From Nocardioides sp. AX2bis (GTDB taxonomy: Bacteria; Actinomycetota; Actinomycetes; Propionibacteriales; Nocardioidaceae), in assembly GCF_902506435.1 (NCBI RefSeq), contig NZ_LR733215.1, positions 3,407,543 through 3,471,542 on the forward strand: a DNA stretch of 64,000 bases, in the 5' to 3' direction. A program made the position numbers and the translations under genes. The notes beneath the pieces are model-generated. The model saw only the letters and a list, made by a program, of their open reading frames with translations. It did not search any database and was not told the DNA's origin. This document shows positions 45,929-53,907 of this stretch, piece by piece. Positions within the stretch are counted from its first letter, which is position 1. Every line of letters begins with the position of its first letter.

Positions 45929-46990
45929 GTGGGTCTCGAGACGTTCGCTGGCGCTCACCCCTCGACCAACGCGGCCCGCGACGTCCGGACGCTGCCGAAG
46001 GCGCACCTGCACCTGCACTTCACCGGGTCGATGCGGCACGGCACCCTGCTCGAGCTCGCGGAGCGGGACGGGATCGCGCTGCCCGACTCGCTGGTCTCCG
46101 GGTGGCCGCCGCAGCTGAGCGCGGCCGACGAGAAGGGCTGGTTCCGCTTCCAGCGCCTCTACGACGTCGCGCGGTCGGTGCTGCGCACCGAGGACGACGT
46201 GCGCCGCCTGGTGCGCGAGGCGGCCGAGGACGACGCGGCCGACGGCGGCGGGTGGCTGGAGATCCAGGTCGACCCCAGCGGCTACGCCGCCCGGTTCGGC
46301 GGGATCACCGCCTTCCTCGACCTGGTCCTCGACGCCACCCGGGAGGCCGCGGCCGCCACCGGTGTCGGGATCGCGGCGGTGGTGGCGGCCAACCGCACCC
46401 GCCACCCGCTCGACGCACGCACCCTGGCCCGCCTCGCCGCGCAGTACGCCGGGCGCGGCGTGGTCGGGTTCGGGCTGTCCAACGACGAGCGACGTGGCAC
46501 CACCACCGACTTCGCGCCGGCCTTCGCCATCGCCGGGCGCGCCGGCCTGCTGCTGCTGCCGCACGGCGGCGAGCTGCGCGGCCCCGAGCACGTGCGGACC
46601 TGCCTGGACGCGCTGCGGCCGGCCCGCCTGGGGCACGGCGTCCGCTCGGCCGAGGACCCCGACCTGCTGGCCCGGGTGGTCGACGCAGGCATCGCGCTCG
46701 AGGTCTGCCCGGTCTCCAACGTCTCGCTCGGCGTCTACTCCGACCTGTCCTCGGTGCCCGTGCCGACACTGCTCGCGGCGGGGGCCACCGTCGCCCTGGG
46801 CTCCGACGACCCGCTGCTCTTCGGCTCCCGGCTGGCCGGGCAGTACGCCACCATGCGCGCCGCCCACGACCTCGACGACACCGCCCTGGCCGGCCTGGCC
46901 CGGATGTCGGTGCAGGCCAGCGCGGCCCCCGACGACGTCCGGGCGCGGCTGCTCCGCGGCATCGACGACTGGCTGGCCACCCCGGCCTGA
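45929..46990 (+). CDS. Adenosine deaminase
   Basis: 353 residues of the Add family. Zinc ligands are HLHLH (residues 26-30), the later HGGE contains the catalytic Glu region, GHGVR gives another His and LGSDDPLLF holds the final Asp pair. It converts adenosine or a related aminopurine to inosine. The first about 14 residues (GLETFAGAHPSTN) are encoded by a copy of the dispersed 53-bp repeat family; homologous sequence begins at about RDVRTLPKAH. No other start codon lies between GTG 45929 and that point, so translation seems to begin in or beside the repeat. Confidence 0.85.
   Translation: MGLETFAGAHPSTNAARDVRTLPKAHLHLHFTGSMRHGTLLELAERDGIALPDSLVSGWPPQLSAADEKGWFRFQRLYDVARSVLRTEDDVRRLVREAAEDDAADGGGWLEIQVDPSGYAARFGGITAFLDLVLDATREAAAATGVGIAAVVAANRTRHPLDARTLARLAAQYAGRGVVGFGLSNDERRGTTTDFAPAFAIAGRAGLLLLPHGGELRGPEHVRTCLDALRPARLGHGVRSAEDPDLLARVVDAGIALEVCPVSNVSLGVYSDLSSVPVPTLLAAGATVALGSDDPLLFGSRLAGQYATMRAAHDLDDTALAGLARMSVQASAAPDDVRARLLRGIDDWLATPA
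45932..45969 (-). repeat. Solitary copy of the 53-bp family inside a gene start
   Basis: It matches the reverse complement of the 51786-52240 repeat unit over about 38 bases, reading GGTCTCGAGACGTTCGCTGG onward, with several substitutions. It lies directly after the GTG of the adenosine deaminase gene. Confidence 0.75.
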
Positions 46991-50891: not shown

Positions 50892-51737
50892 ATGGTGAAA
50901 TCGCCCCCCACCCCCCACTTCTACGACCTCGTCGAGCCCCCCACGGACCCCTCCGAGGGGGCCGCCGGGGACGCCTCGGAGGACCGTCCCGACGGGGTCC
51001 TGCCGACCTCCTGGACGGCCGGGCCGTGGACCGCCGAGGCACAGCACGGCGGACCCCCCTCGGCACTCCTGGGGCGTGCCGTGGAGCGGCTCGCGGCGGC
51101 CACCGGCGGCGGTGCGGTGGGCCGGATCAGCATCGACCTGCTCGGGCCGGTCCCGGTCGGCCCGCTGTCGGTCGGCGCGACCGTGCTGCGCCCCGGGCGC
51201 AGCGTCCGGCTGCTCGAGGCGACGCTGCGCGACGTCGCCGCCGACCGGTCGGTGGCCGTCGCCCGCGCCTGGGTGCTGCCCGAGCGGGACGACGGTCCCG
51301 GTGAGCCCGGTCCGCCTCCCCCGCACGGCCCCGAGCACGGCGTACGCCGCCCACGCCCGCCGACGTGGAACGGCGGCTACCTCGACGCGGTCGACTGGCG
51401 CTGGGTCCGCGGCGGGCTGGACGAGCCCGGGACCGGCGAGGTGTGGATGCGCTCGCCCCGGCTGGTGGCCGGGGAGGAGACCTCCCCGCTGCAGCGGGTG
51501 CTGACGTGCGTCGACTCGGCCTCCGGGGTCAGCGCCGCCCTCGACATCGCGGACTGGGCCTTCCTGAACACCGAGCTGACCGTCCACGTGCTGCGCCCCG
51601 CGGTGGGCGAGTGGGTCTGCCTGGACGCCGCCACGACGCTGGGCCCGGGCTCGGTGGCGGTCGCCACGTCGACCGTGCACGACGCCCACGGGCTCGTCGC
51701 ACGGTCGGCCCAGACCCTCCTGGTCGTCCGCCGCTGA
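50892..51737 (+). CDS. TesB-like acyl-CoA thioesterase family protein
   Basis: 281 residues with two hot-dog units. The first contains EAQHGGPPSALLGRAVERLA, typical of the thioesterase-like 4HBT_3/TesB group, and VGRISIDLLGPVPVGPLSVG. The second ends DIADWAFLNTELTVHVLRPA, VCLDAATTLGPGSVAVATST and VHDAHGLVARSAQTLLVVRR. It should hydrolyse acyl-CoA, with unknown chain specificity. The gene ends 20 bp before the 53-bp repeat array and is divergent from tRNA-Thr. Confidence 0.82.
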   Translation: MVKSPPTPHFYDLVEPPTDPSEGAAGDASEDRPDGVLPTSWTAGPWTAEAQHGGPPSALLGRAVERLAAATGGGAVGRISIDLLGPVPVGPLSVGATVLRPGRSVRLLEATLRDVAADRSVAVARAWVLPERDDGPGEPGPPPPHGPEHGVRRPRPPTWNGGYLDAVDWRWVRGGLDEPGTGEVWMRSPRLVAGEETSPLQRVLTCVDSASGVSAALDIADWAFLNTELTVHVLRPAVGEWVCLDAATTLGPGSVAVATSTVHDAHGLVARSAQTLLVVRR

Positions 51738-51757: not shown

Positions 51758-52240
51758 CACGGTGGTCGAGGAGCGAGCACCAGCCCACGGTGGTCGAGGA
51801 GCGAGCGCCAGCGAGCGTCACGAGACCCGGGCCCACCACACGGTGGTCGAGGAGCGAGCACCAGCGAGCGTCACGAGACCCGGCCCCACCACACGGTGGT
51901 CGAGGAGCGAGCACCAGCGAGCGTCACGAGACCCGGCCCCACCACACGGTGGTCGAGGAGCGAGCACCAGCGAGCGTCACGAGACCCAGGCCCACCACAC
52001 GGTGGTCGAGGAGCGAGCACCAGCGAGCGTCACGAGACCCGGGCCCACCGGCCGCGGACCCTGCTCGACGCCTCCCGCAAGGACAGCAGCGGATCACTGC
52101 CACCCCGTGGCAGCAATCCGCTGCCGTCATCGAGGGCCGAACGCACGGTGGTCGAGGAGCGAGCGCCAGCGAGCGTCACGAGACCCGGGCCCACCACACG
52201 GTGGTCGAGGAGCGAGCGCCAGCGAGCGTCACGAGACCCC
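51758..52240 (+). repeat. Array of 53-bp tandem repeats (eight units, one interruption)
   Basis: Units start at 51758 (truncated), 51786, 51839, 51892, 51945, 51998, 52144 and 52197. The full ones are exactly 53 bp apart in two blocks. Each has GGTGGTCGAGGAGCGAGC, then A/GC, then CAGCGAGCGTCACGAGACC and a CCC(A/G)GGCCCACCA-like tail. There are no unique spacers. It sits between thioesterase and tag gene ends and contains open frames only because 53-bp units lack stops. No gene is seen in 51738-52340. Confidence 0.95.
52086..52124. other. Palindrome in the spacer of the 53-bp array
   Basis: 17-base arms pair with two mismatches around CCCCG. They lie in the roughly 90-bp segment that splits the array (52051-52143) and which itself carries no repeat unit. 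Confidence 0.65.
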
Positions 52241-52243
52241 ACC

Positions 52244-52327
52244 AGGTCTCGAGGCTCGGGCCGAGCGGCCCTCGCACCTCGACCACCGGAGAGGCAGACC
52301 GAGCGGCCCTCGCACCTCGACCACCGG
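52244..52327 (-). repeat. Degenerate inverted copies at the array end
   Basis: GGTCTCGAGGCTCGGGCCGA leads to CCTCGCACCTCGACCACCGG (52244-52289), and a second partial copy with the same GAGCGGCCCTCGCACCTCGA core follows (to 52327). They are a sub-family of the reverse complement of the 53-bp unit. Confidence 0.75.
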
Positions 52328-52340
52328 GCGGCGGCGGACC

Positions 52341-52931
52341 TCAGCGGACGCCGCGGCGGTGGCAGCCCATGAGATGGGTGTCAACCAGCCCCAGCGCCTC
52401 CATCAGCGCGTGCATCGTGGTGGGGCCGACGAAGACGAACCCGCGTCGCTTCAGCTCCTTGCTGAGCGCCAGCGAGTCCGCCGAGCTGCCGGGCACCTCC
52501 TCGACCGTCCGGGGCGCCGGGCCGACCTCCGGTGCGTAGGCCCGCAGGAGGCCCTCCAGGCCGTCGGTGCCGGCCGCCTCGCGCAGCGCGACGGTGGCGC
52601 CCGCGTTGGTGATCGTGGCGTCGACCTTGCGCCGGTTGCGCACGATCCCGGCGTCGGCCATCAGCCGGGCGACGTCGGCGTCGTCGAAGGCGGCCACCGC
52701 GTCGACGTCGAAGCCGGCGAAGGCCTCACGGAAGGCGGGCCGCTTGCGCAGGATGGTGGCCCAGGACAGGCCCGACTGGAACGCCTCGAGCGTCAGCCGC
52801 TCGAAGTAGGCCGACTCGCCCTCGACCGAGACGCCCCACTCGGTGTCGTGGTACTCCTGCATCATCCCGCTGCCCGCGCCCCAGGGGCAGCGGGGGACGC
52901 CGTCGTCCCCGACGACCGGTCCGGTGCTCAC
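52341..52931 (-). CDS. tag: DNA-3-methyladenine glycosylase I
   Basis: 196 residues from GTG 52931. Zinc residues are visible in RCPWG, the YHDTEWG segment, and the C-terminal HLMGCHRR (HX3C), together with WATILRKRPAFREAFAGFD and GIVRNRRKVDATITNA. It excises 3-methyladenine from alkylated DNA. The start is shared with the downstream side of the pirin gene, 7 bp apart on the same strand. Confidence 0.93.
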   Translation of the reverse strand: MSTGPVVGDDGVPRCPWGAGSGMMQEYHDTEWGVSVEGESAYFERLTLEAFQSGLSWATILRKRPAFREAFAGFDVDAVAAFDDADVARLMADAGIVRNRRKVDATITNAGATVALREAAGTDGLEGLLRAYAPEVGPAPRTVEEVPGSSADSLALSKELKRRGFVFVGPTTMHALMEALGLVDTHLMGCHRRGVR

Positions 52932-52938
52932 GACGCGC

Positions 52939-53907
52939 TCACGACCGGGTGCGCAGGCGCACGCGCGGCAGCGCCGGGGCCGGGATCGGCGGCATCGCGG
53001 AGACGACACCGAAGCGACCGTCGGCCTGCTGCCCCTCGCCCACCTGCGCCTGCCAGTCCTCGCGGGCCGTGACGACCTCGTCGTGCGTGCGCCCGACGAA
53101 GTTCCACCACATGACGATCGGCTCGCCGAACGGCGGCCCGCCGAGCAGCAGCACCCGCGCCCCCTCCGCGCCGGCGGCCAGCGTCAGCCTCGCGGCGCCG
53201 GGGGCGGCGTAGGCCAGCTCGTGCTGCGCGACGGCGGTGCCGGCCACGTCGACGGCACCGGTGTCGACCAGCACCCCGTGCTCGTAGGACGGGTCGACCT
53301 CGAGCGCCAGGACCGCGCCGGGGTCCAGGACGAGCTCGGCGCCCAGCAGCGGGGTGGCCGTCGCGACGGGCGAGGTGACGCCCAGCAGCGAGCCGAGGAA
53401 CACCGAGGCGCGCCAGCCGTCCCCGGCCAGCGGCTCGGGGGCGTGGTGGGCGAAGGAGGGCGCCCCGTCGCGTGCCCTCTCGGGCAGCGCCACCCAGAGC
53501 TGGGCACCGTGCAGCACCGTCGTGGTGGGCAGCGAGATCTCGGAGTGGCTGACGCCCCGGCCGGCGGTCATCAGGTTGACCTCGCCCGGGCGGACGACGG
53601 CATGCGTCCCGAGGCTGTCGCGGTGCTCGACCTCGCCGGTGAAGAGCCAGCTGACCGTGGCCAGCCCGATGTGCGGGTGGGGCGCGACCACCATGCCGCC
53701 GGTGTCGGCGACGTCGTCGGGGCCGTAGTGGTCGGCGAAGCACCACGCCCCGATCAGCGAGCGGTCACGCTGCGGCAGCGTGCGCCGCACCGTCATCGCC
53801 CGCGGGCCCCCGAGCGGGACCTCCCGGGGGCCGAGGACCTCGACCCCCGGGCCGCCCGGGTCCGGTCGGCACTCGACCTCGTCCGGGTCGCGCTCGCCAT
53901 TGCTCAT
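52939..53907 (-). CDS. Pirin family protein
   Basis: 322 residues, a bicupin. The N-terminal cupin has the metal-binding motif PHPHIGLATVSWLFTGEVEH then GRGVSHSE, with three His and one Glu as in pirins. Members are quercetin-2,3-dioxygenases or redox-sensitive regulators. There is no evidence for either role here. It is possibly co-transcribed with tag. Confidence 0.9.
   Translation of the reverse strand: MSNGERDPDEVECRPDPGGPGVEVLGPREVPLGGPRAMTVRRTLPQRDRSLIGAWCFADHYGPDDVADTGGMVVAPHPHIGLATVSWLFTGEVEHRDSLGTHAVVRPGEVNLMTAGRGVSHSEISLPTTTVLHGAQLWVALPERARDGAPSFAHHAPEPLAGDGWRASVFLGSLLGVTSPVATATPLLGAELVLDPGAVLALEVDPSYEHGVLVDTGAVDVAGTAVAQHELAYAAPGAARLTLAAGAEGARVLLLGGPPFGEPIVMWWNFVGRTHDEVVTAREDWQAQVGEGQQADGRFGVVSAMPPIPAPALPRVRLRTRS

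Follow-up and report, generated by a model that had tools for sequence, protein, structure and literature searches.

Background

Among the small repeats found in bacterial genomes, REP sequences are some of the most common, and the RAYT transposase is, to our knowledge, the sole dedicated partner that has been recognized for them. In the REP/RAYT system, short, imperfect and species-specific hairpins with complementary mutations are present in more than 100 copies and form inverted clusters, while the enzyme gene lies between two inverted copies (Nunvar et al. 2010, PMC2817692). Within Actinobacteridae, TnpA-Y1 proteins are represented by subclass 1.1 only (PMC6006769). A further type, the CGTC-tagged REPs, apparently has no dedicated transposase and is located between genes in unidirectional or convergent order (Di Nocera et al. 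2013, PMC3733652), and the main text of the paper describing it names no actinobacterium. In mycobacteria, REP13E12/DUF222 is a repetitive gene family listed among the repetitive elements (PMC10589994).

Here, we describe a tandem array of hairpins in Nocardioides sp. AX2bis (contig NZ_LR733215.1), located in a stretch of 64,000 nt that is hereafter called the window and to which all coordinates refer. An actinobacterial hairpin framed around another nuclease family would suggest that the REP way of life arose more than once, and would in addition give a testable role to the DUF222/HNH (13E12) genes.

The array between two convergent genes

The array occupies the 603-bp gap between the convergent genes of an acyl-CoA thioesterase and a DNA-3-methyladenine glycosylase (Table 1). 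TRF reported a 53-bp tandem array at 51760–52238 (score 500, 97% matches), and an 18-nt core was found 11 times in the window against 0.56 occurrences expected. The sequence-only reading had described eight units in two exact-period blocks; the tandem array and its two blocks were recovered, but the eight units are really one half unit and seven full 39-bp hairpins, the latter arranged as a block of five (exact 53-bp period, 51789–52039) and a block of two (52147–52238), followed by two inverted variant copies. Both of these had been taken for degenerate reverse copies, and while their inversion was correctly recognized, one is a full variant hairpin and the other a partial copy. Likewise, the single core copy listed at 45932–45969 is present, but corresponds to a full-length, degenerate hairpin on the minus strand.

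Table 1 Features of the hairpin array and its surroundings (window coordinates)
Feature	Position	Strand	Basis or remark
Acyl-CoA thioesterase gene (4HBT_3 / 4HBT_3C), reads toward the array	50892..51737	+	stop 51737
Half unit (left arm and apex only), outer 5' edge of the array	51760..51787 (approx.)	+	sequence
Full 39-bp hairpin, unit 1	51789..51827	+	
Full hairpin, unit 2	51842..51880	+	
Full hairpin, unit 3	51895..51933	+	
Full hairpin, unit 4	51948..51986	+	
Full hairpin, unit 5	52001..52039	+	
Interrupting palindrome, member of a second dispersed family (GCAGCGGATCACTGCCACC...)	~52079..52131	.	10 genome loci
Full hairpin, unit 6	52147..52185	+	
Full hairpin, unit 7	52200..52238	+	
Inverted full variant hairpin, top stem differs (GGTGGTCGAGGTGCGAGGGCCGCTCGGCCCGAGCCTCGAGACC)	52245..52287	-	
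Inverted partial copy	52299..52327	-	identical to 52261-52289
DNA-3-methyladenine glycosylase I gene (tag), reads toward the array	52341..53009	-	stop at 52341
Solitary degenerate full-length hairpin copy	45932..45970	-	

The two hairpin blocks are separated by a palindromic insert that can form a long hairpin on either strand. Arms of 17 bp had been assigned to it; the palindrome is indeed there, but its arms reach up to ~22 bp and it belongs to a dispersed family of its own, a second perfect palindrome (GCAGCGGATCACTGCCACCWGGTGGCAGTGATCCGCTGC; 52079–52131 in the window, and L046–L051) that occurs at 10 loci genome-wide. Several other palindromes with a CACCAGGTG-like centre adjoin hairpin clusters.

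The gaps between units of one block are near-identical in sequence and the array is therefore without CRISPR-like spacers, as had been stated before; variable, unique spacers of the CRISPR type were not found within its blocks. In relatives, the fetched flank of the thioesterase gene did not contain the glycosylase gene, which left no empty site to be read there.

Conserved secondary structure

The unit is an imperfect hairpin of 38–39 nt with a conserved foot, GGTGGTYGAG...CGARACC, and a top that is variable but always palindromic. Its secondary structure is kept by compensatory change. In an alignment of 81 distinct sequences, pairs form between positions 4–7 and 36–39, 10 and 33, 11–12 and 30–31, and 13–18 and 23–28, leaving bulges at 29 and 32 and G.A mismatches at 8–9/34–35 and usually also at 15–16/25–26. 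In this set, 8 pairs are changed on both sides, two-sided cells number 62 versus 20 in shuffles, and the covariation score reaches 0.175, whereas slid controls do not exceed 0.047. The version of the hairpin differs from genome to genome, and the differences are paired: in GAG[T]AG..GCGT[A]TCGA, for instance, the bracketed bases are replaced by [C] together with [G] or by [G] together with [C], and in the foot GGTGGT[C]..[G]ACC alternates with GGTGGT[T]..[A]ACC. The tops can be rewritten and stay palindromic (TCGC-GCA-GCGA, TTGC-GCA-GCAA, GAC-GAA-GTC), and the apex loop is GNA or GNNA in 226 of the 241 copies of 38–39 nt. A hairpin consisting of the foot only (22 nt, GGTGGTCGAGCYTGTCGAGACC) surrounds nuclease genes in other species, in genomes that are poor in the long form.

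For some variants, folding programs prefer another register of the foot (GGT/ACC plus TCGA/TCGA). It was discarded, since two-sided changes are missing from its outer helix but present at pairs 7–36 and 11–31. Taken alone, these two pairs could also reflect half-sites that a dimer recognizes in double-stranded form; that the top stem is rewritten so freely argues for a hairpin. The covariation-supported fold of the main unit is obtained with an RNA energy model and is not favoured by the DNA energy model, so energy cannot tell which of the two, DNA or RNA, is under selection. Searches against Rfam gave no match above the gathering score, the only sub-threshold matches being of miRNAs to the palindrome.

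Abundance and genomic context

Searching the genome with the 39-mer at up to 3 mismatches gave 44 matches (reversed control: 0), a looser pattern gave 135 copies, and a covariance model recovered at least 157 hairpins; on the main contig, 143 mapped copies are grouped in 57 clusters. The array is thus not unique in the genome. The element was also matched in 93 of 98 sampled genomes of the genus Nocardioides, where the counts per genome are lower bounds. These numbers bear out the proposal that the array is the local amplification of a dispersed, mainly intergenic actinobacterial repeat, and its size, hairpin form and placement agree with the REP-like nature that had been suggested for it. In named genomes, the matches listed for a strict pattern include Nocardioides, Marmoricola, Agromyces, Microbacterium, Pseudoclavibacter, Promicromonosporaceae and Anaerolineales/Anaerolineae records; of 296 genomes of the class, 8 from 3 genera matched a strict-type pattern, and the exact form is therefore concentrated in this group. 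Hairpins of 42 nt with the same foot were seen at L107, L147, L159 and L167, partly in Anaerolineales/Anaerolineae MAGs, and the stretches fetched there contained no DUF222/HNH gene.

According to a simple home-made gene caller applied to the fetched stretches, which makes the counts approximate, and with nuclease-flanking clusters included, 50 of the 60 analysed clusters are intergenic (25 between tandem, 20 between convergent and 5 between divergent genes), 8 overlap a called gene and 2 lie at stretch ends. Convergent placement is over-represented in comparison with the gene junctions of the window (20/60 clusters vs. 7/55 junctions). At L027 and L204 (7121–8788), a hairpin lies in frame within the called N-terminus of a predicted carboxylase-like gene, where it encodes GLETLAGARSSTT; this may be either a start-site artefact or a real insertion.

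Hairpins at DUF222/HNH genes

No match to Y1_Tnp (PF01797) was found in the genome and hence no RAYT gene, which gives no support to the TnpA-REP partner that the sequence-only reading had proposed to look for. The DDE family searched, DDE_Tnp_1, likewise had no match in the genome and was discarded as a source of the hairpins. The coordinates of DUF222 (PF02720) genes, on the other hand, coincide with hairpin clusters: 12 of the 14 HNH/DUF222 genes have hairpins within 600 bp, 6 of them on both sides, and every flanking copy is oriented toward the nuclease gene (49/49). When hairpin positions were rotated, a mean of 0.29 genes had copies nearby, versus the 12 observed; the rotation maximum of 12 genes is an effect of near-zero shifts. 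The association of the hairpins with DUF222-HNH genes is well supported.

The nucleases in the fetched regions form two paralogous sets. Type 1 is a DUF222 protein of 423 aa (78.5 bits to PF02720), and in most copies the upstream hairpin ends 115–117 bp before the start codon and the downstream one begins 21–22 bp after the stop. Type 2 is a protein with an HNH motif, whose relatives in other genomes score above the DUF222 cut-off (61.5 and 33.3 bits), while the type-2 protein of G000 itself falls below that of PF02720. In five type-2 proteins the cysteines and the H-N-H residues are invariant; the type-1 proteins have a D at the position where many relatives carry the asparagine of the HNH motif. 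Judged by PF02720 match and HNH motif, the flanking genes qualify as members of the DUF222 / 13E12 HNH family. NCBIfam gave no name for any of the nucleases, the structure prediction of a type-2 protein was poor (mean pLDDT 52), and a Foldseek search against the PDB returned no significant match (best E 0.56). For paralogues at separate sites, similarity at the DNA level spans from hairpin to hairpin.

Two unusual loci were observed among these genes. At L191 (827–3202), the type-1 DUF222 frame continues through hairpin sequence into a downstream open frame, giving 791 aa, possibly a deletion-born fusion. At L194 (2119–3641), the 5' part of a type-2 nuclease gene is apparently joined to a type-1 3' part, which suggests recombination between paralogues.

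In order to cover other genomes, the hairpin model was run on 78 regions of at most 11 kb, each with a DUF222 gene at its centre. They contained 87 hairpins, 68 of which are no more than 1 kb away from the gene match, 16 farther out and 3 inside; the density within 1 kb is about 17-fold that of the next 4 kb (68 vs. 16 hairpins). Orientation is toward the gene for 56 of the 68, and all are the variant of their own genome. Such nearby hairpins were present at 23 of the 78 loci, including 8/9 in one genome (G395) and 4/4 in another (G366). In an independent sample that started from the hairpins, 10 of 99 loci hold a DUF222/HNH gene, mostly within ~420 bp and in the expected orientation, and one genome has at least 9 nuclease copies with hairpins 150–420 bp upstream of them. 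A simple search for inverted repeats near the best DUF222 genes from other genomes gave no pairs, in line with a flanking of only a subset of these genes.

DUF222/HNH (13E12) genes were present in 97 of the 98 sampled genus genomes and are multicopy in most, and across the genus the number of hairpins cannot be predicted from the number of these genes: in some genomes there are 17–19 DUF222 genes and none of the long hairpins, and one has at least 11 hairpins and no PF02720 match, yet a single related gene.

Several side observations concern individual genomes. A second hairpin type alternates in opposite direction in G395, as in BIMEs, and at L261–L264 tops of the GGCCGC type and of the GGGTTGCTCTGGCAACCC type alternate in opposite orientation beside nuclease genes, resembling the Y and Z units of E. 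coli BIMEs. Genomes G018 (L378–L385) and G342 hold 35–37 type-2-like HNH gene copies each and hardly any long hairpins; of the 8 copies inspected in G018, 5 have hairpins downstream.

Half units and array polarity

The fetched stretches of the genome contain 129 full units, 75 left-only units (left arm plus apex) and 6 right-only units. The left-only half units mostly precede full units on the hairpin strand, and spacers are uniform inside a locus and different between loci. Both features fit one-directional slippage at the hairpin after its arrival, as we infer. In clusters of mixed orientation that hold no gene, forward copies always come first and reverse copies last, as in the window array, an order compatible with gene loss or with gene-less mobile pairs.

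Candidate mechanism and alternatives

The sequence-only reading is supported in part, and it contained neither the compensatory hairpin nor the DUF222/HNH genes flanked by it. We regard the window array as the local amplification of a REP/BIME-like element whose putative partner is a DUF222-HNH nuclease instead of a RAYT (probability about 0.6). The hairpin itself, its dispersal, its inverted arrangement at DUF222/HNH genes, the polarity of the arrays and the missing Y1/RAYT gene are borne out by the data; beyond these, the most likely reading is that DUF222-HNH nucleases move the hairpins. The hairpins would mark the ends of a DUF222-HNH element and serve as its recognition sites, and the nuclease, or host repair of its cut, would spread hairpins or hairpin-gene-hairpin units to mostly intergenic sites. 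After arrival, the copies could multiply in tandem by replication slippage where synthesis stalls at the hairpin, so that half units with the left arm alone would remain upstream of the complete units. The window array, in which two reverse copies come after the forward ones with no gene between them, would then be either a gene-less, non-autonomous member or a decayed one. Counting against a nuclease-driven spread, most hairpin clusters have no adjoining nuclease gene, and similar flanks could also come from host recombination copying nuclease genes together with hairpins. The D of the type-1 proteins in place of the HNH asparagine, the DNA energy parameters, the limited share of DUF222 loci with nearby hairpins and the lack of agreement between gene and hairpin counts across the genus count against it as well.

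In a broader form, to which we give somewhat less than even odds, DUF222-HNH proteins may be a new class of element-moving nucleases that recognize hairpins of fixed foot and free top at both gene ends, mobilize units bounded by these hairpins and, in Actinobacteria, drive a REP/BIME-like population; this would be a second and independent origin of the REP-partner arrangement. If true, the DUF222-HNH reading would provide a function for a large gene family whose role is unknown, and it would account for a repeat that occupies intergenic regions in these genomes.

The many clusters without nuclease genes, together with some hairpin-rich genomes that have few or no DUF222 matches, are also what would be seen if the hairpins were a REP-type repeat moved by another enzyme, in trans or since lost, with the DUF222/HNH genes as passengers that land at hairpin clusters or are regulated by them; elsewhere in bacteria, REPs are targets of insertion sequences (PMC1525189). 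We consider this unlikely, since a gene inserted into a one-way array would have flanks of the same direction, whereas the flanks found here are inverted, and since the spacing is constant and the homology between different paralogues extends from one hairpin to the other.

It is quite improbable that the hairpins act mainly as RNA, that is, as terminators or as 3' hairpins stabilizing mRNA, with the copies at nuclease genes terminating their transcripts. The mostly intergenic placement, the excess at convergent sites and the fold given by the RNA energy model would suit such a role, but the hairpin is on the sense strand when it precedes a nuclease gene and on the antisense strand when it lies downstream, so that a single transcript cannot carry both flanking hairpins; moreover, a U tract is absent after the hairpin, and some copies lie within called genes. 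Least probable of all, the array would be a mere minisatellite grown by slippage from an old insertion and now without function, perhaps of inexact length because the assembly is a draft (37 contigs), a view that accommodates the locus-specific spacers and half-unit polarity and thus tandem growth, but not dispersal, species-specific compensatory change or the flanking of genes.

Relation to described repeat systems

In the literature searched, outside of which most subscription journals lay, no paper prints these sequences or ties DUF222 to such hairpins. Several described systems share single traits with them. Integron attC sites combine a conserved foot with a variable top, and one of their strands is marked by asymmetric bulges of a single base; in foot, top and bulges the present hairpin may resemble them. 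Unlike attC sites, however, the hairpins were read as being without an R-box (GTTRRRY) and without gene cassettes. MIRU/VNTR loci are tandem arrays located between genes, in some cases with a unit length close to 53 bp, whereas the unit described here consists of a hairpin plus a locus-specific spacer and also has dispersed single copies and inverted partners. REP13E12 of Mycobacterium tuberculosis is a gene-length repeat, and with it and other repeats of the 13E12 family the present system shares multicopy DUF222/HNH genes. The CGTC-tagged REPs are similar in being REP-type hairpins with apparently no dedicated transposase and a placement between unidirectional or convergent genes, but differ in tag and sequence.

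Compared with the general description of REP/BIME elements, an imperfect palindrome of 20–40 nt in many, mostly extragenic copies, the hairpin has 38–39 nt, at least 157 copies and 50 of 60 clusters in intergenic positions, and it has the compensatory changes as well. Of the two marks of RAYT-REPs it has neither the RAYT gene nor the GTAG-type tag at the foot, where the conserved 5' extension is a GGT before GGTC/GACC. The system thus differs from RAYT-REPs by the lack of a GTAG or CGTC tag, by its occurrence in Actinobacteria and by a DUF222/HNH nuclease in place of a Y1 tyrosine transposase as putative partner, while the hairpin traits, the clusters of inverted copies and a flanked enzyme gene are common to both: where the RAYT-REP class has a Y1_Tnp/RAYT gene, the inverted hairpins here flank a DUF222/HNH gene.
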